Assembly: GCA_030683155.1 (NCBI GenBank)
Contig: JAUXMV010000062.1
Span: 1 to 64,000, forward strand
Length of the DNA: 64,000 nt
Origin: Bacteroidales bacterium
Lineage (GTDB): Bacteria > Bacteroidota > Bacteroidia > Bacteroidales > F082
Reading direction: 5' to 3'
Under the pieces are notes generated by a model, which saw nothing but the letters and a program-made list of their open reading frames with translations, did not search any database and was not told the DNA's origin. Positions 5,832 to 48,477 of the stretch are shown one piece after another. Both the position numbers and the translations under genes were made by a program. Every line of letters begins with the position of its first letter. Within the stretch, counting starts at the first letter, position 1.

Positions 5832-5869
5832 ACATCATTTCAAGTGTGCATGATTTGTCCCTTTTGCGA

Positions 5870-5908: not shown

Positions 5909-5919
5909 GATTAATTTTG
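5890..5919 (+). promoter_or_regulatory. Promoter of ettA
   Basis: TTG at 5890-5892, a 19-base spacer and TAATTTTG at 5912-5919 make a full Bacteroidota-type promoter about 70 bases before the GTG start. Its -33 element overlaps the 3' arm of the upstream terminator hairpin. Confidence 0.65.
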
Positions 5920-5987
5920 ACACTCAAAAGGCAAGAGATTCTGCATCAGAATCTATTCTAAGATATTGAAATCAAATACTATAAGCA

Positions 5988-24633: not shown

Positions 24634-27600
24634 ATGCATTGTAGATCAACAATATATAATTTTTCTTCTGCTATTCGAAAAATAATTTCTTTTGCTTTTG
24701 CGCTTATACTCTTTGTTTGTTCAAGCAAGATTAATGCACAGGAATCCCTATATTTCAATCGATTTTTATCTGAAAATTCACGCATTGAACGAGGCCTGAG
24801 TCAGAACACGATTTATAGCATTTATCAGGATGACGAAGGATTTATGTGGTTTGGAACGTGGGATGGCCTTAATCGTTTCGATGGATACACATTTTTGACA
24901 TTCAACAAAGAACAGGGCTTGAGCAATGAAGCCATCAGGGCTATCTATCAAGACAAGAATATTTTATGGGTTGGAACGGAAGATGGCCTCAACGCCATCA
25001 ATCTCGACAATGGTCATATCACCAATTATTTTGCCATTGAAGGTGATAGCACAAGTCTAAGTGATAACTGGATAAATCACATCACTTCTGACCATTTGGG
25101 TAAACTGTGGATCAGTACTGCAAGCGGACTAACCGAACTTGACACTGAATCGCTAAAATTCAGACAGGTTTTCAGCCGAAACTACGGCAATCCACTTCGA
25201 AGCAATTACTTCAATATGATGGCTCAGGATGAAAACAATAATTATTGGATTGCCACAAACCATGGGTTGGTTTTCTATGAAACCGGAACACATAAAGTGA
25301 CACGCTTTTTTCATATTCCAGGAGATCCGGCATCGCTTCCCGACAACCATGTAAATGTGATCATTTTTGATGAAGCATTCAATCTTTGGGTCGGCACAAA
25401 AAATGGCACTGCCAGCTATGACAAAAACACAAAATCATTTAATGTTCCAAATGCTTTTCGAAATAATGGCAGTGAGCTTTTTCAAAAAGAAGCCTTATCA
25501 ATGTTAACTGAGCCTGATGGAAAACTTTGGATTGGAACAAATGGACAAGGCCTCTATTTATACGACAGAAAATCTGATAGCATACAATGGTTTGTCAATC
25601 TGCCAAACCGAAGTTTCAGCCTGAGCGACAACAGGGTGTTTAACCTTTACCGCGATCGCTTTGATATGTTGTGGATAGGCACTTTCAACGGCTTAAACAA
25701 GCTCAATAACATTGCACCCAAATTCAGAACCTATCGCAGCAATCCTGATGAAAAAAATAGTCTTTCGAACAACTCAGTGTGGTGTTTTGAAGAAGATATT
25801 GACGGAAATATCTGGATTGGAACAGAAGATGGAATCAGTATTTTCAATCGTAAATGTGGTGACTACAAAATACTTAAACATCAGCGAAACAATCCAAACA
25901 GCATCTCCGGCAATCAGATACGAGCCATAAAACGTGATTCACAAAACCGTTTTTGGATTGGCACACGATACAACGGATTAACGATGTACGACAGCAAAAC
26001 GCAAAAATTTAGACGCTATCTGCACGATCCACGAAATACATCCACAATTCCAGATGATTTTGTCCTTTCATTAGCAACAGATACAAATGGCATGGTTTGG
26101 GTAGGAACATACAATGGACTTGGTCTTTTAAATCCAGAAACAAATGCTTTTACCAGTTACAAACACAACCCCAACCAAAGCAACTCGCTTCCTGACAACA
26201 TAATTTACGGTTTATTTTATGACAGTAAAAACCGATTATGGATTTCTACAGCAAATGGTTTAGCCAAATATCAACCAGATAGCAATAATTTCAGGGTTTT
26301 TAAAATTTCTTTGGAAATAAATCCCGGTCAGTACCATGTCTCCAATAAATTTTTTTCAATCAATGAGGATCACAGTGGAACGCTTTGGATTGGTACACGC
26401 AGCGGAGGCCTAGTTTCTTTCGATACCAAAAGTGAATCTTTTAAAGTTTACTCTGATAAAGACGGGCTTCCAAACAATGTTACCTATCTGGCAATTGAAG
26501 ATCTGAATCACAACATTTGGATCACAACCAACTGGGGTCTCACAAGGTTTTCATCGGATCGCACTATTTTTACAAACTATGAAGTTACTGATGGGCTTCA
26601 AAGCAACGAATTCAATTTCAATGCAGGTCTTTTAACAAAAAGCGGCGAGCTCTTTTTCGGCGGGATGAATGGTTTTACTGCCTTTTTTCCAGAGGATATT
26701 TCCATCAATATGCGTCCCCCTGAAATAAAAATAACGAGCTTCAAACTTTTCAATGAACTTCAAAACCGCAGGTTTAAAAATGGAGACACCTTATTTTTAA
26801 AACACAATGATAATGTGTTTTCTTTTGAATTTACGGCCCTTGACTATACCAACCCATCAAGGATTAAATACCGGTACAAACTTGAGAATTATAACAGTAA
26901 TTGGATTGAACGATCATCTAATCAACGATTTGCAGAATATGCAAGAGTAAGTCCGGGAACGTATAACTTGAGAATTACTGCAGCCAACAGCGATGGATTC
27001 TGGAATGAAAAAGGCATTAGTTTAGTAATTATCATCCAACCGCCATGGTATGAAACCTGGCTTTTCAGAGCCTTTGTATTGCTGCTTTTCATTTTGCTTG
27101 TATACCTTATAATATATACACGCATGAAATCCATTCGCAGCAAGCATGCGGTTGAAAAAAAATACCTTGAGTTTGAAAAGAAACTCTTCGAACTTGAGCA
27201 AAAAGCACTTCAGCTTCAAATGAATCCTCATTTTCTATTCAATTCATTGAACAGCATCCAAAGTTTCATAGTAAACAGCGACATTGACAATGCAATTCAC
27301 TATCTGTCAAAGTTTTCGCAACTTATGCGACGAACTCTCAGTAACTCACGTGAAAGTTATGTGCCACTGCGGGATGAGCTTCAAGCACTCCAATTGTATA
27401 TCGAGATCGAAAAACTGAGGTTTAATGATAAGTTTGAATACATCATAACAATTGATCCGGAGATTGATGAAAGCTTCATTGAAATTCCACCCATGATTCT
27501 TCAGCCATATGTTGAAAATGCTATTATTCATGGCCTTATGCATAAACCTGACATAGGTCATTTGTTGATTGAGCTCAAGCTTGTTGACGATAACGTTCAG

Positions 27601-27828
27601 GTAATTATCCAGGATGATGGCGTAGGCCGTGAAAAAGCTGCCGAAATTAAACGAGAATCTGGAATAGAACGTAAATCAAGGGGAATGTTGATAACAAGTG
27701 AACGTTTGGAGATTCTCAATCAATACACAAAAGACACTTATACAGTCAGGGTAACCGATCACACAGACGAACATGGCAAAGCCTCGGGCACTTCTGTGGA
27801 AATTACCATACACGCAAACCTATCCTGA
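24634..27828 (+). CDS. Periplasmic-propeller sensor histidine kinase (Reg_prop, Y_Y_Y, LytS-type kinase)
   Basis: Membrane sensor of 1064 residues. A signal peptide or anchor at about 15-36 is followed by many Reg_prop repeats (motifs such as GFMWFGTWDGLNRFDG and ILWVGTEDGLN), forming two seven-bladed propellers up to about 690. A Y_Y_Y domain covers about 735-800. One membrane helix lies at about 809-829. The cytoplasmic kinase belongs to the LytS/His_kinase family: the phospho-acceptor is His866 in QMNPHFLFNSLNSI, and the ATPase part has IIQDDGVGR. Unlike hybrid two-component systems, it has no receiver or AraC domain. The LytTR regulator 190 bases downstream is the evident partner. Ligand unknown, perhaps an oligosaccharide. 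Confidence 0.92.
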   Translation: MHCRSTIYNFSSAIRKIISFAFALILFVCSSKINAQESLYFNRFLSENSRIERGLSQNTIYSIYQDDEGFMWFGTWDGLNRFDGYTFLTFNKEQGLSNEAIRAIYQDKNILWVGTEDGLNAINLDNGHITNYFAIEGDSTSLSDNWINHITSDHLGKLWISTASGLTELDTESLKFRQVFSRNYGNPLRSNYFNMMAQDENNNYWIATNHGLVFYETGTHKVTRFFHIPGDPASLPDNHVNVIIFDEAFNLWVGTKNGTASYDKNTKSFNVPNAFRNNGSELFQKEALSMLTEPDGKLWIGTNGQGLYLYDRKSDSIQWFVNLPNRSFSLSDNRVFNLYRDRFDMLWIGTFNGLNKLNNIAPKFRTYRSNPDEKNSLSNNSVWCFEEDIDGNIWIGTEDGISIFNRKCGDYKILKHQRNNPNSISGNQIRAIKRDSQNRFWIGTRYNGLTMYDSKTQKFRRYLHDPRNTSTIPDDFVLSLATDTNGMVWVGTYNGLGLLNPETNAFTSYKHNPNQSNSLPDNIIYGLFYDSKNRLWISTANGLAKYQPDSNNFRVFKISLEINPGQYHVSNKFFSINEDHSGTLWIGTRSGGLVSFDTKSESFKVYSDKDGLPNNVTYLAIEDLNHNIWITTNWGLTRFSSDRTIFTNYEVTDGLQSNEFNFNAGLLTKSGELFFGGMNGFTAFFPEDISINMRPPEIKITSFKLFNELQNRRFKNGDTLFLKHNDNVFSFEFTALDYTNPSRIKYRYKLENYNSNWIERSSNQRFAEYARVSPGTYNLRITAANSDGFWNEKGISLVIIIQPPWYETWLFRAFVLLLFILLVYLIIYTRMKSIRSKHAVEKKYLEFEKKLFELEQKALQLQMNPHFLFNSLNSIQSFIVNSDIDNAIHYLSKFSQLMRRTLSNSRESYVPLRDELQALQLYIEIEKLRFNDKFEYIITIDPEIDESFIEIPPMILQPYVENAIIHGLMHKPDIGHLLIELKLVDDNVQVIIQDDGVGREKAAEIKRESGIERKSRGMLITSERLEILNQYTKDTYTVRVTDHTDEHGKASGTSVEITIHANLS

Positions 27829-28017: not shown

Positions 28018-28767
28018 ATGATAAAATGCATCATAGTTGAAGACGAAAGCAAATCGCGCGAAACACTAAGAGGTTTACTAAGCCGCTATTGCCCTGACGT
28101 GATGGTTGTTGCAGAGGCGGTAGGTGTACAAACAGGCAGAGAAGCTATCGCAAAGTTCAACCCCGATCTTATTTTTCTTGATATTGAAATGCCGGATGGC
28201 AGTGGGTTTAGATTGCTTGAGCAGACTCAAAGGTCAGATTTTGAAGTAATTTTTACAACTGCTTTTGATCAGTTTGCAATTAAGGCCATTCGATATGCTG
28301 CACTCGATTATTTGCTTAAACCCATTGTTCCGGACGAGTTGATAGCAGCCGTTGAAAAGGTGCGGGAATTAAAAGTCAAAAAAAGTAACATCAAGAACTT
28401 TGAAGTACTTCTAAACAATATTTCACCTGGAATGATTGAACCTAAAAAAATCATCTTATCCACCGTTGAAAAGATTCATGTTGTTGAAGTAGATAATATA
28501 TTGCGTTGTGAATCTGATAATTATTATACGCACTTCTATTTTGTAGATGGCAAACATCTTCTGATCAGCAAAACTTTGAAAGATGTTGAAGCAATGCTTG
28601 AAGGAGGAAGTTTTATCAGACCACACAAATCACACCTTATAAATTCACGCTTTATTCAAAATTTCAATCGCGATGAAGGAGGGGTGATAACGTTAACCAA
28701 TGGAACAAAGATTCCTGTTTCCAGACGAAAAAAGGAAAAAATACTCGAAATCATTCACAATTTATAG
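28018..28767 (+). CDS. LytTR-family response regulator
   Basis: Cytoplasmic transcription regulator of 249 residues. The receiver domain (1-120) has the acidic pair Glu9-Asp10... in IVEDES, phospho-acceptor Asp55 in LIFLDIEMPDGSG, Thr80/81 and Lys101 in DYLLKPI. A LytTR DNA-binding domain follows (about 145-245), with the typical CESDNYYTHFY and RPHKSHLIN segments. It is encoded just after a LytS-type propeller sensor kinase, its likely partner. Targets are unknown; the acidic membrane-protein and TonB-receptor genes downstream are candidates by proximity only. Confidence 0.94.
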   Translation: MIKCIIVEDESKSRETLRGLLSRYCPDVMVVAEAVGVQTGREAIAKFNPDLIFLDIEMPDGSGFRLLEQTQRSDFEVIFTTAFDQFAIKAIRYAALDYLLKPIVPDELIAAVEKVRELKVKKSNIKNFEVLLNNISPGMIEPKKIILSTVEKIHVVEVDNILRCESDNYYTHFYFVDGKHLLISKTLKDVEAMLEGGSFIRPHKSHLINSRFIQNFNRDEGGVITLTNGTKIPVSRRKKEKILEIIHNL

Positions 28768-29498: not shown

Positions 29499-32400
29499 AT
29501 GTTAAAAAATCTACTAATTACCTTAGGTATTGTATTGAGTTCCATAACGTTGGCCTATGCACAACAAGGAAGGTTACAAGGAAAAGTTTACGAGAAGGAT
29601 ACCCGGGAGCCTGTAGCTTTTGCCAACATTGTGCTTGAAAATGGCGGAACTGTAGTTGGCGGTGCAACCTCTGATTTCGATGGAAACTACGTAATCAACC
29701 CAATTCCACCCGGCAGATACGACCTGAAAGCAACATTTGTGGGATACAATCCCGTCACGGTAAAAGGTATTACCATTCCGGCAAACCAGATTACTTTTTA
29801 TGATATAGTAATGGTGAGCACTTCAATAGAGTTGCAGACAGTGGAAATTATTGAGTACAAAATACCCTTGATTTCTAAGGACCAAACCACCAGTGGTGCC
29901 TCTGTTACTGCTGAGGAAATCAAAAAGATGCCTAACCGGTCGGCCGATGCTGTTGCTGCTACAGTCGGTGGAGTTTTCTCTGCCGATGGTGAGCGTGGAA
30001 ACGTGCGCGGTGCCCGTTCCGACGCTACAGCGGTTTACATTGATGGTGTGCGTGTAATTGGTAACAGCAATGTTCCTCAGTCAGCTATCGAGCAGGTTGA
30101 CGTTATCCTTGGTGGTACTCCTGCCCAATATGGTGATGCAACCGGTGGTATTATCAATGTTACTACCAAAGGGCCATCCAGAACTTTTGGTGCCGGAATA
30201 GAATTTGAAACTTCGGAGCTACTTGATCCATACGGACACAACCGTCTCGGCTTTAATATTCAAGGGCCTCTTATCAAAGGAAAAAGCCAAAATACGGCCC
30301 TGCTTGGATTCTTCATTGCAGGTGATTTAAATTATGAACGTGATGGAGCTATTTCCTCTACAGGATATCACAGAGCTACTGATGCCACACTGCAAAGCCT
30401 GCAACAAAGTCCTCTGCGCCCTTCAGGAACAGGGGCTGGTACACTGATCAATGGCGAGTTTATTAGATTATCCGATCTTACAACTACCCGCAGGTCAATG
30501 AATACCGAAAATTACAATGTGAACCTTTCTGGTAATATTAATATCAGAACGACTGAAACGATCAACCTTTCTATTGGCGGAACATTTAATAAATCCAGTG
30601 GAAACGCTTTCAGTTATTCAGGTTCATTCTATAACTGGGATAAAAACACTGAATACAACAACAATACCTGGCGTGTTTTCGGCCGTTTTACACAACGTTT
30701 CCCAACCGCAAGCGAAAGCACTTCAATTGTTAAAAATCTCTATTATTCAGTTCAGGCTGACTTTACACGCCAAGTCAATTCCTTTGGCGACCCTGACCAT
30801 TATGATAACTTATTTGATTATGGCTACCTTGGAAAGTTTTCGGTAGATAAGATAGCAACATTTGAGCTTGGAAGTGATACCGTGAATGGACAATTTTATA
30901 ACAATGTCTGGGTACTTAACTCATGGGATTTTGACACACTCGTCACATGGACACCTTACGACCTGAACCCTATTGTGGCTAACTATACCAACAATTATTT
31001 CAATACTTATGCAGGTTTTCCACAGGGTAACTACAGAAACTACAATCAGATTCAGTCTGGCGGTGGCTATCTTAACGGACGTACACCTGATGCTTATTAT
31101 GGATTGTACCAAGCTCCGGGAACCAATCAGTCAGGATATGGCAAAGTTGATAATGATCAATTCAGCATCAATGTTGCCGGCTCAATGGACATAGGCAATC
31201 ATGAAATTAAACTTGGTTTCCAATATGAGCAGCGTACAAATCGTTCTGTAAGTTATGCACCTACCGGATTGTGGAGTTTGATGCGTGACCGCACAGGTTT
31301 GACAAACTTTCATTTGCTTGAGCTCGATAAACAAAACCCTTTTGTAATCAGTTATGATGGCATCGTAGATACAATTATGTATCGCAGAAGGTATGATGGT
31401 AACTCACAGCGTACTTTTGACATCAATTTAAGAAAGAAACTTGGCCTTCCTGTAGATGGTCTGGATTATATTGTCATCGACTCCTATGATTACAATAACA
31501 ACTCCATTGAATATTACGATCAGGATGGTGTAAAACGCACAGTTACTGTTGATGGTAAACTTTTCGATATTGGCATGTTTAGCCCTGACGAATTGCTTAA
31601 CGACGGGAACTTCTTTGTATCATATTTTGGCTTCGACTACACAGGAAAAAAACTTAATTCACGTCCAAGTTTTGAGGAGTTCTTTACCGAACGGGATGAG
31701 AACGGAATGTACACCAGACCAGTTGGAGCTTTTCAGCCAATTTACATGGCTGGTTATCTGCAAGATAAGTTTGCATTCAGAGATTTGATCTTCAATATTG
31801 GTGTACGTGTTGACCGTTTCGACGCCAACCAGAAAGTTTTGAAAGATCCTTATCTTTTGTACAATGCATATACTGCCGCAGAAGTTAAAAAACTTGGAGA
31901 CTTTAATATTCCCTCCAGTATTGGTGATGACTTTACAGTATATATCAACAATTTAAGAGATCCTGTTATTACTGGTTACCGCTTCGAAAACACATGGTAC
32001 AACGATCAGGGTGCTGTAATCCAGGATCCAAGTATATTGGATGCAGGTTCAGGGATTTTACCTTATGTTATAAACCCAGATCAACAAAGGGTTGATATTT
32101 CTGCCTTTAAAGATTATGATCCGCAGATAAGCGTTATGCCACGTATATCTTTCTCCTTCCCCATTTCGGATGAAGCTTTGTTCTTTGCCCACTATGACGT
32201 GCTTACCCAAAGACCTACGAGTAACTTATTTTCGAATCCTGCGATATATTATTTCTTTGAAAGTATTGGTGATGTTATCAACAACCCTTCACTTAAACCT
32301 TCTCAAACAATTGACTACGAATTAGGATTTACTCAAAAAATAACAAATTCATCATCACTTACATTTACAAGTTTCTACAGAGAAATGCGTAATATGATTC

Positions 32401-33206
32401 AGATATTCCGATACAACGGTGCATATCCTAAAGATTATACATCTTTCAGTAATCTTGACTTTGGAACTGTTAAAGGTTTGACAGTGGAATATGATTTGCG
32501 ACGCACAAACAACACCCGTATACGCGCCGGCTACACACTGCAGTTTGCCAATGCTACTGGTGCCAGCACTACAACAGCAGCCGCACTCGTAGCTGCAGGA
32601 CTACCAAATTTACGTTCAACATTGGCTATGCCCTGGGACCGTCGTCACCAGTTCAACCTTTTACTGGACTACAGATATGGTGCTGGACGCGAATACAATG
32701 GACCAAGAATCAGTCGTGACAAGAAAGATAAAGCGCCTATCAATATTTTAGAAAACGCTGGTTTCTCTTTGACAGTTTTAGGAGGTTCAGGCACACCTTA
32801 TACTGCTTCACGAAACGTCAACTCGCCGCTTTCATCAGTTAGCAACCTTTTAAAGGGTACATACTTTGGATCTCGTCTACCATGGCAATTCCGTTTAGAC
32901 CTAAGAGTTGATAAAGATTTTGACATCAAACTGAATAAAAAGGACGGCGAAAGTAAACGCAAAGCATATCTTAATGCTTACCTTCAGGTATTGAATCTAC
33001 TTGACACAAGAAACGTACTTAGAGTTTATCCTGCCACCGGCAACCCTGATGATGATGGCTATTTGGCAGCACCTGAATGGCAGAGGCAGATAAATAACCA
33101 GACTGACCCTATTGCCTTTAGAGAAATCTATGAGGTTTTTGTGAACCGTCCGGGTAATTACAGTTCTCCTCGCCAAATCAGATTAGGTGTAATGTTTAAT
33201 TTTTGA
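29499..33206 (+). CDS. TonB-dependent receptor with carboxypeptidase-regulatory-like domain
   Basis: Outer-membrane receptor of 1235 residues. Signal peptide 1-21 (cleavage AYA-Q). A carboxypeptidase-regulatory-like beta domain follows (about 25-105; GKVYEKDTREPVAFANIVLE and SDFDGNYVINPIPPG). The plug spans about 125-240, with IEQVDVILGGTPAQYGDATGG. The remaining part is the barrel, ending FNF. It lacks the SusC-specific plug sequence and no SusD lipoprotein is adjacent, so it belongs to a separate receptor class. The 30-base gap to the next gene and the PorV-like gene after that indicate a three-gene operon. Cargo is unknown. Confidence 0.9.
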   Translation: MLKNLLITLGIVLSSITLAYAQQGRLQGKVYEKDTREPVAFANIVLENGGTVVGGATSDFDGNYVINPIPPGRYDLKATFVGYNPVTVKGITIPANQITFYDIVMVSTSIELQTVEIIEYKIPLISKDQTTSGASVTAEEIKKMPNRSADAVAATVGGVFSADGERGNVRGARSDATAVYIDGVRVIGNSNVPQSAIEQVDVILGGTPAQYGDATGGIINVTTKGPSRTFGAGIEFETSELLDPYGHNRLGFNIQGPLIKGKSQNTALLGFFIAGDLNYERDGAISSTGYHRATDATLQSLQQSPLRPSGTGAGTLINGEFIRLSDLTTTRRSMNTENYNVNLSGNINIRTTETINLSIGGTFNKSSGNAFSYSGSFYNWDKNTEYNNNTWRVFGRFTQRFPTASESTSIVKNLYYSVQADFTRQVNSFGDPDHYDNLFDYGYLGKFSVDKIATFELGSDTVNGQFYNNVWVLNSWDFDTLVTWTPYDLNPIVANYTNNYFNTYAGFPQGNYRNYNQIQSGGGYLNGRTPDAYYGLYQAPGTNQSGYGKVDNDQFSINVAGSMDIGNHEIKLGFQYEQRTNRSVSYAPTGLWSLMRDRTGLTNFHLLELDKQNPFVISYDGIVDTIMYRRRYDGNSQRTFDINLRKKLGLPVDGLDYIVIDSYDYNNNSIEYYDQDGVKRTVTVDGKLFDIGMFSPDELLNDGNFFVSYFGFDYTGKKLNSRPSFEEFFTERDENGMYTRPVGAFQPIYMAGYLQDKFAFRDLIFNIGVRVDRFDANQKVLKDPYLLYNAYTAAEVKKLGDFNIPSSIGDDFTVYINNLRDPVITGYRFENTWYNDQGAVIQDPSILDAGSGILPYVINPDQQRVDISAFKDYDPQISVMPRISFSFPISDEALFFAHYDVLTQRPTSNLFSNPAIYYFFESIGDVINNPSLKPSQTIDYELGFTQKITNSSSLTFTSFYREMRNMIQIFRYNGAYPKDYTSFSNLDFGTVKGLTVEYDLRRTNNTRIRAGYTLQFANATGASTTTAAALVAAGLPNLRSTLAMPWDRRHQFNLLLDYRYGAGREYNGPRISRDKKDKAPINILENAGFSLTVLGGSGTPYTASRNVNSPLSSVSNLLKGTYFGSRLPWQFRLDLRVDKDFDIKLNKKDGESKRKAYLNAYLQVLNLLDTRNVLRVYPATGNPDDDGYLAAPEWQRQINNQTDPIAFREIYEVFVNRPGNYSSPRQIRLGVMFNF

Positions 33207-33236
33207 CAGGTCGGTTAACTGAAAATCTTAACGAAA

Positions 33237-36200
33237 ATGAAAAAAATCAAAGGAAAAATGAAGAATATTATCCAAATGCTGTTTGTTGCAGCTTTCATTT
33301 TACTGTCCGTCAATCAGGCTTTTGCCAGAGAGTTCCTGTATGAAAAAGGTCAGAAATCAACATACCCTTTAAAGCAAACTACTGCTGGGTGTTCTCCATC
33401 ATCTGCTTTTGAATGGCTCGACGTGAACAATGTAAGAGCACGCGTTAATGCTGGTGGTGACATGTGGTGGGATCTACCGGGCGGAACAGGTGCCAAGTAT
33501 TATATCCCAAAAGCAGGTTCAGCAACTTCAATCTTTGCCGGCTCACTATGGATTGGTGGAACAGATATCAATAACCAGCTAAAACTCGCAGCCTTAAGGT
33601 TTCGTCAGGTTGGTAATGATTACTGGACTGGTCCACTTACAATTGATGGTACCGCTGCAATTGATGAAGCAACCTGTGCCCAATTCGACCGTCAGTGGAA
33701 AATTACCAGAGCAATTGTAGACGAATTTTTAGCAAATACCGATCCTGCCACAGGTGCATTTATTCCAAGTGAATCATACACTATTCCCAAAGAGATACTT
33801 GAATGGCCTGTTCATGGTGATGTTTCAAAACAGCAAAGCTATTATCTTGCTCCTTTTTATGATGTAGATGGCGATGGTGAATACAATCCTTTTGCAGGTG
33901 ATTATCCTTATTATGACATTGATAACAGTCTGTGTCAAACCAGAACTCCAACAATGGATGAATCAATTGAAGGCGCAATATGGGGATCTGTATTAGCCGA
34001 CCAGGTCATCAAAGGCGACCAGACAATCTGGTGGGTTTTTAATGATAAAGGTAATATTCACACGGAGACCGGTGGTTCGGCAATCGGACTGGAAATCAGG
34101 GCTCAGGCTTTTGCATTTGCAACAAACGATGAAGTAAACAACATGACTTTTTATAGTTATGAAATCATAAATCGCTCAACCTTTGAGCTTACTGATACTT
34201 ATTTCTCTCCATGGATCGACACCGACCTTGGCAAAGCAGATGATGACTTCGTTGGATGTGACGTCGGCCGTGGATTAGGATATTGCTACAATGGTAAAGC
34301 TGTTGATGGCAGCGGTGAGCCTGAATCATACGGAGAACAGCCACCAGCTGTTGGTGTTGACTTTTTTCAGGGACCTTATATGGATCCGCTTCCTTTCGAC
34401 AGACCTAAATACCGTTATGTTCTTGATCCTACAACAAGTGACACTATAGGACGTGAACAATTGTGCGATGAAAGTATTAACGGCGTTAATTTTGGTGACG
34501 GCGTTCCGGGCAATGAACGTTTCGGTATGCGTCGTTTCGTTTATCATAACAATGACAACTCACAAAGTGGTGACCCCAGAACAGCTCAGGAATATTACAA
34601 CTACCTGAAAGGTATTTGGAGAAATGGCCAAAGAATGGAATATGGCGGAACAGCTTTCCCAGGTGCACCTGGTACAGTTGGTCCAATTTGTGACTTCATG
34701 TTTCCTGGTGACAGTGACCCATGTAACTGGGGTACCGGTGGAGCACCACCAAATGGTGGTTTTGGAATTGATGGTTTCTACTGGACAGAAGAAACTGGTA
34801 ACAATGGTGGACCTAATCCTCCCGGAGACCGTCGTTTTATGCAGTCAGCCGGTCCTTTTACACTCAAACCTGGTGCTGTAAACTATATTACAGTAGGTAT
34901 TCCATGGGCTCGTGCAACTTCAGGTGGTCCTTTTGCTTCTGTTGAACTCTTGAGAGTAGTTGACGATAAGGCACAGGCGTTGTTTGACAATTGTTTTAAA
35001 GTAATCGACGGACCAAACGCTCCAGATCTTGCTTTCCAGGAACTAGACCGTGAATTTATTGTTTACATCTCTAATTCGCCTTCTTCAAACAATTACAAGG
35101 AATCCTATACAGAATTTGATCCTAATATTATTCAGCCCCATCCAACTGAACCAACAAAACGCAGCGACTCATTATACCGTTTTGAAGGCTATCAGATTTT
35201 CCAGCTTAAAAACGAAAGAGTAAGTGTTGAAAGTCTTAAAGATGCCAATCTTGTTCGTCTTGTAGCTCAGTTTGACAAGAAAAATGGCATTGGAAAATTG
35301 GTAAACTACTATTATGATGAGTCTATCGGTGCAACAGTTCCGGTAGTTGAAGTAAGAGGTGGAGATAATGGAATCCAGCATTCTTTCAAAATTACACAAG
35401 ATGCTTTTGCAACCGGAGATGTGCGTTTGGTTAACCACAAACAATATTATTTCATGGCTATCGCCTATGCGCACAACGAATATATGCCATATACCGATGA
35501 GCCCGGTGTTCTGGGTGGATTGTTTGGTCAAAAACTTCCATACCTTGCAGGTAGGAAGAATATTAAAACATACACTGCAATTCCTCATATTGTAAACAAT
35601 GGCCTTATTGCCAATGCTCAGTATGGCAGTGGTGTCGAAATCACACGTCTTGCAGGCAGGGGTAACGGAGGAGTTGAGCTTGAACTTTCTGAAAACACAA
35701 TCAAGGAAATATTAAGCAAACAACCAGCAAGTGCAACAAATCGTTTTGGCAGTCCTGATTATCCTATCGCATACAATCCTTCCTATGTAAAAGGCAAAGG
35801 GCCAGTGAACGTTAAAGTTATTGATCCATTAAATGTTGTTGCTGCTGATTACGAACTTTGGATGGATTCACTCAGACCTTTCTATGTGAAGAACGTAACA
35901 CGTGATCCAAGTATTGCAGGTGACTCAGCGCTGAAGTTTGTTTCAAGATGGTATTTGCGTGACATCAAAACTAACGATACTTTGTTTTCTGACACAACAA
36001 TTGTAGCCAATGACGAACGTGTTTGGGCTGAACGTGGCATTTCAATACAAATTGATCAACCATACAATATTGGGCCTGTAAGAGTAGGAACAGTATCTAC
36101 CGGAAGCACTAATCCATCAATAAATAAAATACTTTCAAAGAACAATGGCTTCATTACTGCTCAGGTAATATATCAGGACAGCTCAAAACGCTGGCTCGAT

Positions 36201-37589
36201 GGTATCCGTGATGAAGATATACCTGGTTTTGCAATCAACTGGATTCGTTCAGGGACTTATAAGGATCAGGAAAACTCGAATAATAGCGATAACAACATGA
36301 ATGAGTCGCCATTTAATCCATTTGACCCAACAGAAAACTATGAAAAAATAGCAAATGGAACCTGGGCTCCTTATGTATTGACATCACATTCAAAACAAAG
36401 TGCTGACAATGATCCGGGACCTGCCATTTCAGCTGGATCAAAACAAGATGCAAAGTTTTTCAATCTTGCGAGTGTTGATATCGTTATGACCTCGGATAAG
36501 TCTAAATGGACACGATGCCCGGTAATTGAAATGCAGTTAGACGAAAATCTATCACAAGGAAATGCGAAAAGATTCCAATTGCGCAAATCTCCTTCAGTAG
36601 ATAAAAATGGAAATTTTGCAGCTTCTATGGATCTTGGACCTAGCAATAACCCTGAAGATGCCAACTATATTTCAAGTTATGGCATGGGTTGGTTCCCCGG
36701 TTATGCAATCAATATTGAAACTGGAGCTAGGTTAAATATTTTCTTCGGTGAAGATTCATTCCTTCCGCAATTCAACGGCAGAGACATGAAGTTCAATCCG
36801 CCTTCAAAAGATATGAGTTTACCATCTCAGCTCCTCGATCCGGCTATTTTCTCTCGTATCGACCTTAATCCAATATTTGGTGGAAAGCATTTTGTTTATG
36901 TAATGCGAATGGATGAATCAGCACCTTCGGGAACAGTGAACTTCATGTCGCCTGCATATGATGCTGGTAAATATGCTTTCACTACAATGGATACTATTTC
37001 CAAAGCACTTCCTCAAGTTGCTTCCGTTTTTGCAAACAGATTATTCCGTCAGGTAATGTGGGTTGGAATGCCAATGGGTGTTAAAGGTGAACAATGGCTA
37101 TCGAATGATGTTAAAATACGCATTCGCGTTGCCAAACCTTACGAAAGAGGTTTTGCAGAATATGCTTTGGATACTGTATATCTTGGTAGAAATGTAAATA
37201 ATTTCTATCCAAAATATGCATTCAGCACAAATAATGTTGCTACAACTTATCGTGATCCTGCCAAAATTCAAACGGATCTCGACCTGATTACCGCTGTGCC
37301 AAATCCTTATTATGCTTACTCTTCCTATGAAAGGAATGCGCTTGACAATCGTATCAAAATAACCAATCTGCCTGAAAGATGTGTGATAACCATTTATAAT
37401 ATGAGTGGAACAAAAATCAGGCAATTTAAAAAAGATGAACCTAAAACGTCAATTGACTGGGATTTAAAAAACTTTGCTGGGGTTCCAATCGCTAGCGGCG
37501 TATACCTCATACACATTAAATCCGATGATGGTGAGAGGATCATTAAATGGTTTGGAGCACTTCGTCCGATTGACCTGAACACATTCTAA
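33237..37589 (+). CDS. Very large secreted protein with T9SS-like C-terminal domain
   Basis: A 1450-residue exported protein. The signal peptide ends near AFA-R at residue 30; a later start at Met8 is possible. I recognise no enzymatic domain. Visible features include an EF-hand-like acidic loop (YDVDGDGEYNPFAGDYP, about 208-224) and a conserved-looking cysteine-containing region near 335-375 (DDFVGCDVGRGLGYCYNG, then QPPAVGVDFFQGPY). The last about 100 residues begin AVPNPYYAYSSYE and contain ITIYNMSGTKIRQF and GVYLIHIKS, which matches a type A T9SS sorting domain or FlgD-like fold. It is probably exported across the outer membrane and retained at the surface. The genes on either side, a receptor and a PorV-like protein, suggest a dedicated complex. 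Confidence 0.85.
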   Translation: MKKIKGKMKNIIQMLFVAAFILLSVNQAFAREFLYEKGQKSTYPLKQTTAGCSPSSAFEWLDVNNVRARVNAGGDMWWDLPGGTGAKYYIPKAGSATSIFAGSLWIGGTDINNQLKLAALRFRQVGNDYWTGPLTIDGTAAIDEATCAQFDRQWKITRAIVDEFLANTDPATGAFIPSESYTIPKEILEWPVHGDVSKQQSYYLAPFYDVDGDGEYNPFAGDYPYYDIDNSLCQTRTPTMDESIEGAIWGSVLADQVIKGDQTIWWVFNDKGNIHTETGGSAIGLEIRAQAFAFATNDEVNNMTFYSYEIINRSTFELTDTYFSPWIDTDLGKADDDFVGCDVGRGLGYCYNGKAVDGSGEPESYGEQPPAVGVDFFQGPYMDPLPFDRPKYRYVLDPTTSDTIGREQLCDESINGVNFGDGVPGNERFGMRRFVYHNNDNSQSGDPRTAQEYYNYLKGIWRNGQRMEYGGTAFPGAPGTVGPICDFMFPGDSDPCNWGTGGAPPNGGFGIDGFYWTEETGNNGGPNPPGDRRFMQSAGPFTLKPGAVNYITVGIPWARATSGGPFASVELLRVVDDKAQALFDNCFKVIDGPNAPDLAFQELDREFIVYISNSPSSNNYKESYTEFDPNIIQPHPTEPTKRSDSLYRFEGYQIFQLKNERVSVESLKDANLVRLVAQFDKKNGIGKLVNYYYDESIGATVPVVEVRGGDNGIQHSFKITQDAFATGDVRLVNHKQYYFMAIAYAHNEYMPYTDEPGVLGGLFGQKLPYLAGRKNIKTYTAIPHIVNNGLIANAQYGSGVEITRLAGRGNGGVELELSENTIKEILSKQPASATNRFGSPDYPIAYNPSYVKGKGPVNVKVIDPLNVVAADYELWMDSLRPFYVKNVTRDPSIAGDSALKFVSRWYLRDIKTNDTLFSDTTIVANDERVWAERGISIQIDQPYNIGPVRVGTVSTGSTNPSINKILSKNNGFITAQVIYQDSSKRWLDGIRDEDIPGFAINWIRSGTYKDQENSNNSDNNMNESPFNPFDPTENYEKIANGTWAPYVLTSHSKQSADNDPGPAISAGSKQDAKFFNLASVDIVMTSDKSKWTRCPVIEMQLDENLSQGNAKRFQLRKSPSVDKNGNFAASMDLGPSNNPEDANYISSYGMGWFPGYAINIETGARLNIFFGEDSFLPQFNGRDMKFNPPSKDMSLPSQLLDPAIFSRIDLNPIFGGKHFVYVMRMDESAPSGTVNFMSPAYDAGKYAFTTMDTISKALPQVASVFANRLFRQVMWVGMPMGVKGEQWLSNDVKIRIRVAKPYERGFAEYALDTVYLGRNVNNFYPKYAFSTNNVATTYRDPAKIQTDLDLITAVPNPYYAYSSYERNALDNRIKITNLPERCVITIYNMSGTKIRQFKKDEPKTSIDWDLKNFAGVPIASGVYLIHIKSDDGERIIKWFGALRPIDLNTF

Positions 37590-37620
37590 AAACCACCTGA
37601 ATTGCGAACCAAAAAAATGA

Positions 37621-38688
37621 ATGAAAATGAATACTTTTTATAGATACATAATCGCATTAAGCCTCATCCTTATTGTTGGGGCAGGAAATCTGCAGGCTGG
37701 TAACAAAGACAGGTCGGGTCAGGCTGGAGCGGCAGAGCTTCTCATCAACCCCTGGGCAAGAAGCTCAGGCTGGGGTAATGCCGGAATGTCGAACATTAAA
37801 GGTCTTGAATCAACCTGGAGCAATGTAGGCGGACTTGCATTCACGAAAAAGACCGAATTGATTTTCGCACATACAACCTGGCTAAAAGGAACCGATGTTA
37901 ATATATACTCTTTTGGGTTTTCCCAAAAAGTTAGTGAATCGGGTGCCTTGGGATTGGCTATTATGTCAATGAATTTCGGCGACATCCCAATTACTACAAC
38001 CGATAGTCCGGATGGAGGTTTGGGATCATTCTCACCCAACCTGCTTAACGTTGGTATTTCGTATGCAAAATCTTTTTCAAACAGTATTCATGGTGGTTTT
38101 GTGATGAAGATCATTTCACAAAGCATTTCCGACATGAGTGCTCAAGGTATTGCTTTGGATGCAGGCATTCAATATGTAACCGGAACAATGGAAAACATCC
38201 ATTTTGGAATTACATTGAAAAACATTGGACCTACCTTGAGATTTTCAGGTGACGGACTAAAGATGAGGATTTTTATCCCAGGTCAGGAAACCCAATTTAC
38301 ATCTGAAATGCCAGTTGAAGCTTTTGAATTACCTACCCAGCTGGTAATAGGTACAGGCTATGATTTTCTTTTTGAAAACGATTATCGCTTTACTTTGGCT
38401 GGAAACTTCACATCAAACTCATTCACCAAAGACCAGATTACACTTGGAGGCGAATTTAGTTTGAAAGATTATTTATTGCTTCGTGCCGGATACACTTATG
38501 AAGAAGGTATCTGGGATAATATCGAAACTGACATGCGTACAAACGTAAGCAAGGGATTTAGTGGCGGATTTAGTGTTCAGGTTCCTTTAAACAAGGAAAG
38601 CGGTTCCGTTTTTTCCGTTGACTACTCCTATCGCACAACAGATCATTTTAACGGGAATCATACCATCGGAGCTAGGATAAGTTTCTAA
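37621..38688 (+). CDS. PorV/PorQ family outer membrane protein
   Basis: Predicted outer-membrane beta-barrel of 355 residues with a signal peptide (cleavage LQA-G, residue 26). The mature N-terminus GQAGAAELLINPWARSSGWGNAG is the hallmark of the PorV/PorQ family (long-chain fatty-acid-transporter-like fold), followed by repeated amphipathic strands and a final GARISF. PorV is the T9SS subunit that binds the C-terminal signal of cargo and shuttles it to attachment. A copy directly after a large CTD protein suggests a cargo-specific paralogue rather than the core PorV, which is usually encoded elsewhere. It starts 31 bases after the preceding stop. Confidence 0.88.
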   Translation: MKMNTFYRYIIALSLILIVGAGNLQAGNKDRSGQAGAAELLINPWARSSGWGNAGMSNIKGLESTWSNVGGLAFTKKTELIFAHTTWLKGTDVNIYSFGFSQKVSESGALGLAIMSMNFGDIPITTTDSPDGGLGSFSPNLLNVGISYAKSFSNSIHGGFVMKIISQSISDMSAQGIALDAGIQYVTGTMENIHFGITLKNIGPTLRFSGDGLKMRIFIPGQETQFTSEMPVEAFELPTQLVIGTGYDFLFENDYRFTLAGNFTSNSFTKDQITLGGEFSLKDYLLLRAGYTYEEGIWDNIETDMRTNVSKGFSGGFSVQVPLNKESGSVFSVDYSYRTTDHFNGNHTIGARISF

Positions 38689-43977: not shown

Positions 43978-46900
43978 ATGAAGTATTGCATTATAAAGGC
44001 TTTTATTATTGGCGCGACAGCAGCCATACTTTTTGTATGCAATCAATTGAATGCTCAACCAAACAAATCTGTTCGCTTCGAATCTTTAACCACACAGCAA
44101 GGTTTGTCGAGAGCTTTGGTAAAGGCAATGGAAATGGACGATTTTGGCATGTTGTGGGTTGCCACAGAAAATGGCCTTAATCGTTTTGACGGATACCGTT
44201 TTGAGGTTTTCCGCAATGAAATAGATAATCCCCGTTCGCTTCCCGACAACAACATCATCTCATTACTGAATGCAGGAAAAAACGGATTGATTATGGGCGC
44301 ATATAGTGGAATTCTGGCACGATATAATTTTCTTACTGATGATTTTGAGCATTTAACCTTCCCTCTTGAATTGGCTGAAGCTTTTTCAATGTCTGAGCCT
44401 GATTTTCTTGCAATAGATTCAAATGAAGTCATTTGGATAGCCACTACAAATGGTTTGTTTGCATATCGTATTCATGATAAAAAAGCATGGCATTTTCATC
44501 CCAATAACAGCGGTCTGAAATCTCAGTACATAAAACATATTTTTATTGACAGTCGCAAAATAATGTGGCTGGCAACAGATGTCGGTCTTGCCCGTGCCGG
44601 TAATCACCTCAATCCGGATGAACTCGAAATAGTTACCATCAATAGTAATTCTTTGCCAAGTCCATATGCAAAAAGAGTTACTGAAGACCTTAAAACTCAA
44701 ATATGGGTGGGTTCAGATGGTGGCCTTAGCCTTTTCGATCGCGATGAAGGCACTTTTGTTGAACACTTCAGACATGTTGAAAATGATCCGTTAAGCCTTG
44801 CCAATAATTACATAAAGGCTATGGTAACTGACAACAACGGAAACATTTGGATTGGCCATGACATGGGTGTTTCGCTGTTTAATCCCACAGAAATGGTTTT
44901 CACTAACCATGAAGCAGGATTTGATGGTGTGCATGGATTAATAAACAATTATGTAAAATGCCTTCTTGCAGATGAAAATGACATCATTTGGATTGGTACC
45001 GATTTGGGCATAAGCTACTATAATCCATTCAAAGAACCTTTCAGTTCCATCATACAGAAACCTGGAGAAATGGGAGGATTAAAAGGCAATTTGGTTTATG
45101 GCATCTGGGAAGACAGCCCTGACAGCATCTGGCTGGCGACAAATAACGGCCTGCACCTTTGGAACAGTAGCAATGGATATCTAAAGGTTTTTAAGCATTC
45201 TCCGGATATATCAGGTACAATTAACAGCAATCTTGTTCGCTCGGTAATACGCCATAGCAGCGGCACATTATGGATTGGAACGGATATGGGACTGAACAAG
45301 ATGATTATAGAAAAAGACGGAAAAGTTAGTTTTAAAAATATCGGTGCTGGTCATACCGATGGTAAATCATTGAACAATAATTTCGTTGTTACCATAAAGG
45401 AAATATCCGATGGACAACTCTGGGTTGGCACATGGGGAGGTGGTGTGAACATTCTAAATCCAGAAACCATGACCTTCAATTATCTATCTGAAACTCCAGA
45501 TGAAAATGGTCTGCGTTTGAGAAACAATAAAATAGCCACCATATTTGAAGACAGTAAACGACAAGTTTGGCTGAGAAGCGGAGACATTTTCGATCTTAAT
45601 ACCAATAAAGTAATCCCATTTCCATTTGATGACAACATTGAAAACATCAATTTCTTTTTTGAAGATCATTTAAACCGCATCTGGATCGGAACCTCAACGA
45701 ATGGCCTGCATTATTTTGATCCTGCAAATAAAAAACTGCATCAACTGACACAACATACGCTTTTAAGGGAAGGGGTAGTTGTAAGCATGTTGCAGGATGA
45801 ACAAAATCGATACTGGATTGCCGTTGATAAACAGCTTATGCGACTCAATAGCAACCTGACTGACATTCATATTTTTGACAAATTTGACGGGCTTCAGGGT
45901 GGAGATTTCAGCAATGAAGCTGCTTTTTCTGGTTCCGATGGCAAGATGTATTTTGGAGGTAGTCCGGGGGTAAGCTTTTTTAAGCCTGAGGATATTTTTC
46001 TAAACACGAATAAAATCAGGGTTTATCTCACGGGATTAAGACTTAACAATAAGCTTCAAAAGCCAGTGGCAGGCAGTATTCTTGATACTGCAATGATAAG
46101 TAAACGAAGATTGATTTTATCCCACAACCATCGAGAGCTCGTAATTGAATTTGTTGGAATTAACTATACCAATCCACAAAAAAACCGCTATGCCTTTATG
46201 ATTGAAGGACTTCAATCTGAGTGGGTTTTTGCGGACGCTGAACAACGAAATGCAAGTTATTTCCGGCTTCCTCCAGGTAAATATGTATTCCAAGTGAAAG
46301 GTGCAAACAACAGCAATATTTGGAACGAAGAATCCACAAACCTTGAAATAGTTGTTTTACCACCATGGTATCAGCTTTGGTGGGTACGAGTGCTTTCGAT
46401 GTTGTTTCTTGGTATAGCAATTTATCTTTTTGTACTATTCAGAACAAATAAACTAAAAAAACAAAAGCTACTATTGGAACAAAAAGTGATTGCACGAACT
46501 TTTCAATTACAAAACCAAAAAGCAGAAATTGAATTAAAGAATAAGCAGTTAGAAGACGCAAGTAAAGCCAAATCAGAGTTTCTGGCCAACATGAGTCATG
46601 AAATCAGGACTCCATTGAACGGTGTTATCGGCTTCACTGATCTTGTATTAAAAACAGATCTATCTTCAACCCAGAAAGAATACCTTACAATTGTTGGTCA
46701 GTCAGCTGAGGGTCTGCTTAATATAATCAATGATATTCTTGATTTTTCCAAGATTGAAGCTGGCAAGCTTGAGCTTTTTATTGAAAAGGCCGACATCCAT
46801 GAAATTGGCAGTCAATCTGTGGATATAGTAGCTTTTCAAGCACATTCAAAAGATTTGGAAATACTGTTGAATATGCCGCTTGATCTGCCACGTTTTATCT

Positions 46901-48477
46901 ATACAGATATCGTTCGGCTAAAGCAGGTTTTAATCAATTTACTCAGTAATGCAGTAAAATTTACGCATAAAGGTGAAATAGAACTAAAGATTCAGATGCT
47001 TGAGGCTGTTGAAAATAGCTCTGGTATCTTTAGATTCAGCGTTCGCGATACAGGTATTGGGATTAATCCGGATAAACTTTCGTTGGTTTTGGAGGCATTC
47101 ACACAGGAAGACAGTTCTACGACAAAAAGATTTGGGGGAACAGGTCTTGGGCTGACAATATCAAACCGTTTGCTTGGCTTGATGGGAAGTCACTTACAGA
47201 TTGAAAGTGAACCAGGCAAAGGAAGCATATTCTTTTTTGATGTAACTCTCAAGTGTGAGGAAGGTTCTAAGAATCAATCTGAAGCCCTTCAATGGATTAA
47301 AAAAGCACTTATCGTTGATGACAACCAAAACAACCGGACTATTCTCAGCAAAATGCTTGAATATTTTGGCATAACGGCTGAAGAAGCTGTGGACGGAACA
47401 GATGCACTACGACAGCTTAAAAATGATAATGATTATGATCTCATTTTTATGGATTATCACATGCCTGATGTCGATGGTCTTGAGGTAATAATAAAAATAC
47501 AGGACGCTGATAGGCCATTAAACCCAAAAACTAAAATAATCTTATGGCATAGCTCTTCAGATGATGAAGAAATTGCAAGACACTGCGAAAGCCTTGGCGT
47601 AAAAGTTAGAATGGTCAAGCCAGTAAAACTTAAAAATCTTTTTGAAACACTTGTCAAAATCCCACATCAGGATAATGAAAGCACAAAATCTGAAGCAATT
47701 GGGCAGATCATTTTTAATGGGAAATATCATATACTTCTGGTTGAGGATAATCCTGTAAACCTGTTGCTTGCAAAAACTATTTTGAAAAAAATCTTGCCTG
47801 AATCAATTATTCATGAGGCACGAAACGGCCTGGAAGCTCTTGAGTTCTGCACAAAGCAAATGCCCGATCTCATCTTCATGGATATTCAAATGCCTGAAAT
47901 GAACGGCTACGAGGCTACGATAAATATCCGCCTTCTTGAAGATGGTGCTACTGTTCCAATTCTGGCCTTAACTGCAGGCAATGTTAAGGGTGAAAAAGAA
48001 AAGTGTTTTTCCCTGGGTATGAATGACTTTCTATCAAAACCTGTTGTTGAGGCAAACTTTGCAGCTGCTGTAAAAAAATGGCTGAATCCAACCATTAAAA
48101 TTAAAGAAAAGGCTAAACCCACAGTTGCTGTTTCTCAGAAGTTTAATATTGAAACCCTTAAAGCAGATCTGGGTGACGACCCTGTTTTTTTAAGGGAGTT
48201 TTTACTTGTCCTGCAGGAAAGCCTTCAAAAATCGATCGTTGAAGTGAGGCAATATATTGAAGAAAATAATTTGGAAGCACTTCATGCAGCAGCACATAAA
48301 CTCAAGGGCACTGCCTTTTCCATACAAATGAATTCATTGGCGATGACAGCAGCAAAGCTTGAGAAAATTAAAAATACTGAAAGTCTTGAAGCACGTGACA
48401 GCCTTATTGAATTTGAATCTCAAATAAATACGATCCTTCCAATGGTAAAGGAAGAATTAAAAAATTATTTGGAATAG
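43978..48477 (+). CDS. Hybrid sensor kinase with propellers, two receivers and HPt domain
   Basis: Membrane sensor of 1499 residues. A signal peptide or anchor (about 1-26) is followed by periplasmic Reg_prop repeats (motifs such as MLWVATENGLNRFDG and NIWIGHDMGVSLF) to about 690, and a Y_Y_Y domain to about 795. One membrane helix lies at about 802-822, then a short coiled coil. The HisKA domain has His874 in NMSHEIRTPLNG, followed by HATPase (DTGIGI, GGTGLGLTIS). Receiver 1 has Asp1159 (FMDYHMPD), receiver 2 Asp1302 (FMDIQMPEMNG), and the C-terminal HPt has His1440 (AAHKLKG). Most propeller hybrids end in an AraC domain; this one has none, so phosphate must pass to an unlinked regulator. 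No such regulator is adjacent. Confidence 0.93.
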   Translation: MKYCIIKAFIIGATAAILFVCNQLNAQPNKSVRFESLTTQQGLSRALVKAMEMDDFGMLWVATENGLNRFDGYRFEVFRNEIDNPRSLPDNNIISLLNAGKNGLIMGAYSGILARYNFLTDDFEHLTFPLELAEAFSMSEPDFLAIDSNEVIWIATTNGLFAYRIHDKKAWHFHPNNSGLKSQYIKHIFIDSRKIMWLATDVGLARAGNHLNPDELEIVTINSNSLPSPYAKRVTEDLKTQIWVGSDGGLSLFDRDEGTFVEHFRHVENDPLSLANNYIKAMVTDNNGNIWIGHDMGVSLFNPTEMVFTNHEAGFDGVHGLINNYVKCLLADENDIIWIGTDLGISYYNPFKEPFSSIIQKPGEMGGLKGNLVYGIWEDSPDSIWLATNNGLHLWNSSNGYLKVFKHSPDISGTINSNLVRSVIRHSSGTLWIGTDMGLNKMIIEKDGKVSFKNIGAGHTDGKSLNNNFVVTIKEISDGQLWVGTWGGGVNILNPETMTFNYLSETPDENGLRLRNNKIATIFEDSKRQVWLRSGDIFDLNTNKVIPFPFDDNIENINFFFEDHLNRIWIGTSTNGLHYFDPANKKLHQLTQHTLLREGVVVSMLQDEQNRYWIAVDKQLMRLNSNLTDIHIFDKFDGLQGGDFSNEAAFSGSDGKMYFGGSPGVSFFKPEDIFLNTNKIRVYLTGLRLNNKLQKPVAGSILDTAMISKRRLILSHNHRELVIEFVGINYTNPQKNRYAFMIEGLQSEWVFADAEQRNASYFRLPPGKYVFQVKGANNSNIWNEESTNLEIVVLPPWYQLWWVRVLSMLFLGIAIYLFVLFRTNKLKKQKLLLEQKVIARTFQLQNQKAEIELKNKQLEDASKAKSEFLANMSHEIRTPLNGVIGFTDLVLKTDLSSTQKEYLTIVGQSAEGLLNIINDILDFSKIEAGKLELFIEKADIHEIGSQSVDIVAFQAHSKDLEILLNMPLDLPRFIYTDIVRLKQVLINLLSNAVKFTHKGEIELKIQMLEAVENSSGIFRFSVRDTGIGINPDKLSLVLEAFTQEDSSTTKRFGGTGLGLTISNRLLGLMGSHLQIESEPGKGSIFFFDVTLKCEEGSKNQSEALQWIKKALIVDDNQNNRTILSKMLEYFGITAEEAVDGTDALRQLKNDNDYDLIFMDYHMPDVDGLEVIIKIQDADRPLNPKTKIILWHSSSDDEEIARHCESLGVKVRMVKPVKLKNLFETLVKIPHQDNESTKSEAIGQIIFNGKYHILLVEDNPVNLLLAKTILKKILPESIIHEARNGLEALEFCTKQMPDLIFMDIQMPEMNGYEATINIRLLEDGATVPILALTAGNVKGEKEKCFSLGMNDFLSKPVVEANFAAAVKKWLNPTIKIKEKAKPTVAVSQKFNIETLKADLGDDPVFLREFLLVLQESLQKSIVEVRQYIEENNLEALHAAAHKLKGTAFSIQMNSLAMTAAKLEKIKNTESLEARDSLIEFESQINTILPMVKEELKNYLE

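Follow-up and report, generated by a model that had tools for sequence, protein, structure and literature searches.

A receptor, a type IX-exported giant protein and a PorV-family barrel: a candidate outer-membrane uptake module in Bacteroidales

SusCD is the textbook glycan uptake route of Bacteroidota, and the type IX secretion system (T9SS) is regarded as a machine for secretion and adhesion. Three adjoining genes in a Bacteroidales bacterium of the F082 lineage combine elements of both. They lie within a 64,000-nucleotide stretch, here called the window (assembly GCA_030683155.1, contig JAUXMV010000062.1, positions 1 to 64,000), and encode a TonB-dependent receptor, a giant exported surface protein with a T9SS C-terminal domain (CTD), here called the cargo, and a PorV-family barrel. 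We put at roughly one in two the probability that the three genes form one outer-membrane uptake module, a T9SS-delivered counterpart of SusCD whose cargo is retained by its barrel. Like SusCD, the set pairs a TonB receptor genetically with a surface-exposed partner, and related sets sit in glycan loci. Unlike SusCD, the receptor has no SusC model among its NCBIfam matches up to E 1, and no SusD-family gene adjoins it: its neighbours are the cargo, which has no SusD match, and a 152-residue protein with no family over cut-off. The partner carries a T9SS CTD, with no lipobox seen after its signal peptide, and the PorV-family barrel is an extra component.

On the secretion side, the nearest described systems are PorZ-PorQ and PorU-PorV, in which a surface protein with a kept type A-like CTD is paired with a PorV-family barrel (PMC10202324, PMC8545088; these and the papers named below are cited from excerpts). 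The CTD of PorZ is kept on PorQ and that of PorU on PorV, and protection of the CTD from cleavage by its cognate barrel is suggested there for PorZ/PorQ and for type B pairs (PMC10202324). The module CTD is closest in fold to that of PorZ, whereas the cargo is not PorZ and the barrel is not PorQ, both of which are encoded elsewhere in the genome. A TonB receptor is added, and CTD retention would hold by analogy. SprB-SprF, with a type B CTD and a PorP/SprF-like barrel, resembles the module in having a cargo gene beside its own barrel gene and a specific pairing (PMC12618676, PMC9143113); predicted type B pairs reached iPTM values above 0.8 (PMC12618676). It differs in that the module CTD is type A-like and the module barrel scores 142.5 bits with the PorV/PorQ family model NF033709 (cut-off 90) against 16 bits with the PorP-family model (cut-off 90.55); the Pfam PorP_SprF cut-off is exceeded by 3 bits. 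Since the excerpts of PMC12618676 have all type A CTDs recognised by PorV, a second type A-like class of cargo and barrel would be new.

The same order of gene types appears in a published alginate locus of Rhodothermus marinus, where tonB, hypA (T9SS type A sorting domain), hypB (PorV/PorQ family) and hypC lie among alginate lyase and uronate genes (PMC9530828). Its cargo gene differs in being 2,181 nt, about half the size, and is likened to the window's by annotation, not by sequence; in the excerpts the genes appear in the Figure 2 legend and are not treated as a system. An R. marinus xylan locus holds Rmar_1070 (TonB receptor), Rmar_1071 (hypothetical, with a sorting domain) and Rmar_1072 (hypothetical) (PMC6987092). 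In a map of Porphyromonas heme-uptake loci, the neighbouring genes include one of the PorV/PorQ family and one with a T9SS type A sorting domain (PMC12106395). No description of the three genes as one system was found in open-licence PMC papers, preprints excluded. As far as that literature shows, the components are known families and the combination is apparently undescribed as a system, though its genes figure in published maps.

The features of the locus, all on the plus strand, are as follows.

29499..33206, plus strand: TonB-dependent receptor, 1235 residues, with CarboxypepD_reg, plug and barrel, not of SusC type (Pfam and NCBIfam scans)
33237..37589, plus strand: cargo, exported surface protein with T9SS CTD, 1450 residues (open reading frame, ORF, and NCBIfam)
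33390..35006, plus strand: cargo N-domain, residues about 52-590, predicted beta-supersandwich at fold level (AlphaFold and structure matches)
33861..33917, plus strand: EF-hand-like loop with GDYPYYD block in the cargo, residues 209-227, conserved in 15 sequences
35034..37256, plus strand: cargo middle region, residues 600-1340, confident AlphaFold model
37263..37562, plus strand: cargo CTD, residues about 1343-1442, PorZ-like T9SS CTD (structure matches and TIGR04183)
37563..37586, plus strand: cargo C-terminal tail, R..DLNTF, residues 1443-1450, conserved in 15 sequences
37621..38688, plus strand: PorV-family barrel, neither PorV nor PorQ, 355 residues (NCBIfam scores and own clade)

A first-pass annotation of the sequence had proposed three genes with gaps of about 30 bases, a T9SS-like C-terminus on the giant protein and a PorV-family barrel. 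All three hold: the ORFs follow one another on the same strand, with 30 bases between receptor and cargo and 31 bases between cargo and barrel, and the scores given above and below identify the barrel and the CTD. Operon structure rests on these gaps and on conservation, since promoter-like sites are no commoner than in shuffled sequence (31 against a mean of 30.1) and terminator-like sites about as frequent (12 against 8.6, standard deviation 2.9).

Conservation and distribution of the gene set

The arrangement is repeated far beyond the window. The best 80 of at least 578 related stretches come from Bacteroidales and from other or unspecified Bacteroidetes metagenome-assembled genomes (MAGs), with a few labelled Flavobacteriales or Sphingobacteriia. 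Both neighbours, with order and strand kept, occur in 73 of these 80 loci, and the receptor lies upstream of the cargo in 75. The condition under which the first-pass annotation would have been refuted, homologues that usually lack either neighbour, does not apply. Five of the seven exceptions (L083, L098, L102, L106 and L127 in our numbering) end at a contig edge on the missing side. L132, a contig of 5.5 kb, is oddly arranged, and the seventh exception, L136, has neither neighbour. All three genes are present in 29 of 29 loci from the genomes of relatives, which are partly the same genomes as in the 80-locus set.

Across the phylum, the cargo profile matches at E 1e-10 in 138 of 296 genomes with a completeness of at least 90%, some of these matches being short pieces and partly CTD only. 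Forty regions chosen among the stronger matches hold 41 homologues, most of 1000-1400 residues. In these other orders and classes, both neighbours are found for 35 of the 37 homologues testable on both sides (including L195, with the barrel 83 bases away); the second copy in L186, visible on one side only, has no receptor. Because the arrangement recurs in 73 of 80 loci and in 35 of 37 testable copies elsewhere, it is more than chance. This conservation rejects the idea of a local unit, and the unit is far wider than was first suggested.

Within the relatives' set, the window's own genome (4.74 Mb in 111 contigs) has the cargo as a single copy, and cargo homologues occur in 43 of 61 genomes, the window's own and 60 relatives; 44 matched at E 0.001, one of them (G054) by the CTD only and not counted. 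The cargo is ancient and well preserved: one genome encodes a version 97% identical to the window protein, and among the full-length homologues that were aligned the identity falls as low as 45%. The core T9SS gene SprA is present in all 80 cargo-positive genomes tested, these being 80 of the 137 matching genomes besides the window's own and mostly the stronger matches. SprA is also present in 42 of the 43 cargo-positive genomes of the relatives' set, the exception (G002) being 84% complete, and in 17 of its 18 cargo-negative genomes. From these counts, the cargo is seen only alongside the T9SS, and the T9SS occurs independently of the cargo.

Other genes of the window lie near the module. Upstream are a hybrid-type sensor with beta-propeller repeats, Y_Y_Y and His_kinase (24634-27828) and a LytTR response regulator (28018-28767). 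A fixed regulatory link to them is not supported, because their homologues occur in only 24 and 25 of the 80 loci, respectively. A second giant ORF of 1499 residues (43978-48477) lies on the same strand as the module.

Sequence and predicted structure of the cargo

The sole match of the cargo at a curated cut-off is the T9SS type A sorting domain TIGR04183 (residues 1374-1437, 28.2 bits, cut-off 23); Pfam PF18962 stays under its cut-off (20.0 vs 27 bits). TIGR04183 is matched at E 0.01 by 13 of 15 cargo homologues, and the PorZ model by 11 of 15. The cargo was rejected as a PorZ, its score with NF052228 being 28.1 bits on the CTD part only, against a cut-off of 260. A PDB sequence search with the cargo profile returned a weak PorZ CTD match (E 0.068) and otherwise unrelated rows. 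A viral origin or a viral copy of the cargo was also rejected, since viral contigs searched with the cargo alignment yielded no relative.

In an alignment of the window protein with 14 homologues, 45-75% identical to it, five loop residues (D209, G221, D222, P224 and D227) and five cysteines (C52, C147, C233, C341 and C586) are invariant. The EF-hand-like loop and the cysteine block singled out in the first-pass annotation are accordingly conserved, with calcium binding by the loop putative. At the end of the same alignment, R1443, D1446 and L1447 are invariant and N1448 and F1450 nearly so. This R..DLNTF tail was not seen in 14 CTDs of the modules with other cargos described below.

Two AlphaFold models cover residues 33-870, with a predicted local distance difference test score (pLDDT) of 82.6, and residues 600-1450 (pLDDT 90.8). 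The cargo alignment was drawn from 78 of the 80 loci, as L127 and L132 gave no suitable ORF, and one near-identical row was removed; the 71-row alignments behind the models hold the window protein and 70 of the remaining 77 homologues. The best structure match of the N-domain is 9ju0 (Z 18.8, 3.2 A over 254 residues, 12% identity), followed by 8h6h (Z 17.6), 1ug9 (17.3) and many GH94, GH65 and GH116 proteins. Their shared fold is what we take to be the beta-supersandwich, or galactose-mutarotase-like fold. The earlier description of a giant protein with no recognisable domain stands for sequence families beyond the CTD and gives way for the predicted structure, where the fold is recognisable.

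These matches also bear on whether the cargo is a supersandwich-type surface enzyme, such as a lyase or an epimerase, that feeds the receptor. The N-domain's structural neighbours include PL26 and alginate lyases, GH174 and the aldose epimerase 3nre (Z 12.6). Its best matches, on the other hand, are to N-terminal segments of enzymes from families GH15, GH65, GH94 and GH116, in which catalysis takes place in a domain other than the matched part, and Pfam recognises no enzyme family in the cargo. A surface enzyme is therefore a very improbable reading of the cargo.

At the other end of the protein, the CTD matches PorZ 5m11 best among the matches listed (Z 10.9, 2.4 A over 88 residues, 22% identity), and PorZ also leads the Foldseek list for the CTD (E 5.2e-5). 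Next come a Bacillus-type protease fibril (8jmw, 8.7), PorU (6za2, 8.3), the mirolase CTD (8.1) and an S-layer protein (8.1); the NucA and RemA CTDs follow at Z 7.2 and 7.1. The matches near Z 8 may reflect just a shared Ig-like arrangement, and PorZ stands clear of them. The CTD dominates the matches listed for the residues 600-1450 model, in which it covers up the middle region (600-1340).

The N-domain, which has no Pfam family, also occurs in shorter proteins: a tandem pair in one genome (L046:2065-4116 and 4359-6398), L051:5311-7368, L052:4695-8012, L053:4215-7448, L054:1575-4142 and L055:5814-7397. In several of them it lies behind Ig- or cadherin-like domains. As far as their contigs reach, no module receptor or barrel adjoins these seven proteins, and an ordinary PF18962 CTD over cut-off terminates five of the six that were scanned. 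Because these proteins without module neighbours mostly end in an ordinary CTD, the presence of a barrel partner seems tied to the CTD subtype rather than to the N-domain.

Barrel and CTD lineages and related sets

The window barrel passes the PorV/PorQ family model and falls below both the PorV equivalog NF033710 (74.8 bits, cut-off 250) and the PorQ model NF033711 (70.8 bits, cut-off 220). The genome's own PorV (470.9 bits) and PorQ (344.7 bits) are encoded on other contigs, so that the barrel is neither of them and not the genome's only PorV, a point the first-pass annotation had left to be checked. SprA and PorZ are also encoded by this genome. PorV-family matches occur at seven places in it, four of them over cut-off: PorV proper, PorQ, the window barrel and a member on contig C26. 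The C26 barrel (L239:7853-8977, 141 bits) is neither PorV, PorQ nor the module barrel; downstream of its gene come a receptor-like gene and two further genes whose products look exported.

In a tree of 93 PorV-family proteins, the 61 module barrels form one group apart from the 29 core PorVs, with a Shimodaira-Hasegawa-like approximate likelihood ratio (SH-aLRT) support of 99. PorQ and the two other own-genome family members have long branches whose placement is not firm. The input was 67 loci, 60 of which had all three genes; L229 was excluded for an ORF on the wrong strand. When 13 barrels of other cargos and two variants are added, and 13 Bacteroidales triads thinned out, the module barrels stay nearly together (63 rows, two changes). 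In the CTD tree, which is short and poorly resolved, 75 module CTDs (two changes) stand apart from 33 ordinary type A CTDs, picked by their C-terminal-end pattern, and from 19 PorZ CTDs. The earlier proposal of a barrel dedicated to one cargo gains support from these separate clades.

The lineages bear directly on whether the barrel is a mere shuttle, passing the cargo to the ordinary attachment complex, where PorU would remove the CTD and leave the cargo on anionic lipopolysaccharide (A-LPS) or in the medium; the receptor's adjacency would then reflect co-regulation only. The cargo CTD passes the type A model, and the type A CTDs studied so far, as excerpted, are handled by PorV and cleaved (PMC12618676, PMC10202324). 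A shuttle leaves unexplained why a single cargo should have a separate barrel and CTD subtype, and PorZ and PorU, both among the nearest structural matches of the CTD, retain their own (PMC10202324). We regard a shuttle as quite improbable, and retention on the barrel as the better fit.

Across 73 modules, the distances among receptors, CTDs and barrels correlate at r 0.86-0.93, a level reached by none of 999 permutations. The same holds within 13 modules carrying other cargos (r 0.87-0.91, 0 of 999). As judged from these sequence distances, the modules appear to be inherited and to evolve as units; the correlations do not prove contact.

Sets of this kind with other cargos were sought in 16 regions (L243-L258) around high-scoring non-core PorV-family genes, chosen by us from ten genomes outside class Bacteroidia. 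The order receptor, cargo, barrel is found in 13 of the 16, including L255, identified on a second reading of its ORFs, and L248 holds a second, cut set. L243 and L249 have a receptor and a barrel with no cargo between, and L257 has neither. In the L243/L249 variant, an exported-looking gene of about 500 residues lies upstream and one of 359 residues downstream, and the two barrels group at support 100. The other cargos have about 700-1240 residues and lack the N-domain except for a weak match in L251; three match the middle region weakly, and what they have in common is the CTD subtype. Residues 786-863 of the L252 cargo (L252:4127-7567) score 30.3 bits with a phage tail-tube model, under its cut-off of 60, and the L246 cargo has a weaker match of this kind. 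PorV-family matches number 6-17 per genome in 18 genomes outside Bacteroidia against 2-5 in 12 inside.

Glycan genes surround several of these related sets. The modules in L244, L250 and L256, from three families, adjoin GH16 with malectin (two), GH3 (two), GH5 with CBM6, and GH30, along with sub-threshold GH17, MFS sugar transporters (two) and a ROK kinase; by family assignment, the GH neighbours are of beta-glucan type. L245 lies near a CBM20 protein, L248 near a GHL10 protein, L253 near an Amidase_2 protein, and L251 near an M14 peptidase and a muconate-lactonising-type enzyme. On plasmid pRMAR01 of Rhodothermus marinus DSM 4252, a gene annotated as a TonB-dependent receptor is followed by one for a hypothetical protein and one for a PorV/PorQ family protein, with a peptidoglycan recognition family protein next in line; the cargo of this set matches the window protein in the CTD only. 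The glycan-locus context suggests uptake for the related sets and not for the window copy.

Proposed mechanism and its significance

In the proposed mechanism, the cargo would be exported by Sec and the T9SS, as its CTD and the co-occurrence with SprA suggest. Its CTD would then pass to the private PorV-like barrel and be kept there uncleaved, as the PorZ domain is on PorQ, the barrel serving as a surface anchor beside the TonB-dependent receptor. Several features point to this retention: a CTD resembling that of PorZ, a tail kept among the homologues, CTD and barrel lineages that stand apart, and the pairing of the genes. Gene order and co-inheritance suggest that cargo and barrel would form a complex with the receptor. 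The ligand that the cargo would capture, probably a glycan or a fragment of some other polymer, would be imported by the receptor with TonB energy, as the receptor type and the glycan loci of related sets suggest. A T9SS cargo would thus take the place of the lipoprotein SusD, and the barrel that of the lipid anchor. Retention, complex formation, ligand capture and uptake are inferred steps, set upon observed gene order, distribution, phylogeny and predicted folds, and the module is a plausible but unproven alternative to SusCD importers. The role first suggested, dedicated export and attachment with uptake, is plausible and partly supported.

Tentatively, and with somewhat more doubt than confidence, the window set would be one conserved member, present in many Bacteroidales, of a class of receptor modules. 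Each would have its own T9SS-exported capture protein, which a private PorV-family barrel would hold at the cell surface by means of an uncleaved CTD belonging to a distinct subtype. For glycans and other polymers, the class would provide an alternative route to SusCD, and it would have multiplied where the PorV family is most numerous per genome.

Several observations weigh against these readings. The likeness of the modelled N-domain to the beta-supersandwich is partial and at fold level, with large insertions, and shows no function; Foldseek alone gives 9ju0 at E 1.9e-4 with TM-scores of 0.22 at best. Both neighbours are missing from L136, a second copy in one MAG, from L185 and from the first L186 copy. 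In genome G058, an N-domain homologue cut by the contig end (L059) is preceded by a sensor kinase and not by a receptor; this counterexample and the low TM-scores reduce the odds of a new class. No carbohydrate genes adjoin the window copy. Of the 72 loci whose downstream sequence exceeds 2.2 kb, 71 contain homologues of the window's greA and HIT genes; upstream, the gene content differs between loci. In other classes, the module lies beside GWxTD, lipid A, M23 or TPR-cytochrome genes. Any contact among receptor, cargo and barrel is deduced from gene order and co-inheritance. The GWxTD-domain protein gene adjoins or is near the barrel of N-domain modules in L199, L172, L196 and L206.

The main rival draws on the same neighbourhood. 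It holds that the window-type module, with its N-domain, is a core envelope complex, a surface structure or an envelope-maintenance machine rather than a nutrient importer, built from a receptor-like barrel, a barrel-anchored T9SS protein and a PorV-like barrel in a design comparable to the Bacteroidota beta-barrel assembly machinery (BAM) complex with BamG and BamH. Besides the constant greA and HIT homologues and the GWxTD, lipid A acyltransferase and M23 genes beside relatives in other classes, the single-copy cargo is about as conserved as core PorV: in nine genomes its identity is 34-71%, near that of PorV (37-84%), and it exceeds that of PorZ (29-71%) in eight and is level in the ninth. 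A FadL-family BamG with a surface subunit BamH offers a precedent (PMC12611786, in excerpt). Such a core role sits poorly with the absence of the cargo from 18 of the 61 genomes, two of them in the same family, though 17 of the 18 have SprA. It also fits poorly with the plug domain of the receptor (PF07715, 44 bits, cut-off 23.9) and with the glycan loci of related sets. On this balance, we consider a core envelope role unlikely.

If the uptake reading is true, the T9SS builds uptake apparatus across the phylum, which would join the fields of glycan uptake and secretion. It would also give a function to many genes now annotated as 'PorV/PorQ family', 'T9SS type A sorting domain' and 'TonB-dependent receptor', and would explain both the multiplication of the PorV family in these genomes and the uncleaved state of some CTDs. 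The modules offer a test of the idea, put forward in the excerpts of PMC10202324, that a cognate barrel protects its CTD. A cultured host, Rhodothermus marinus, has such sets, one of them in a published alginate locus, and so the question is testable now.

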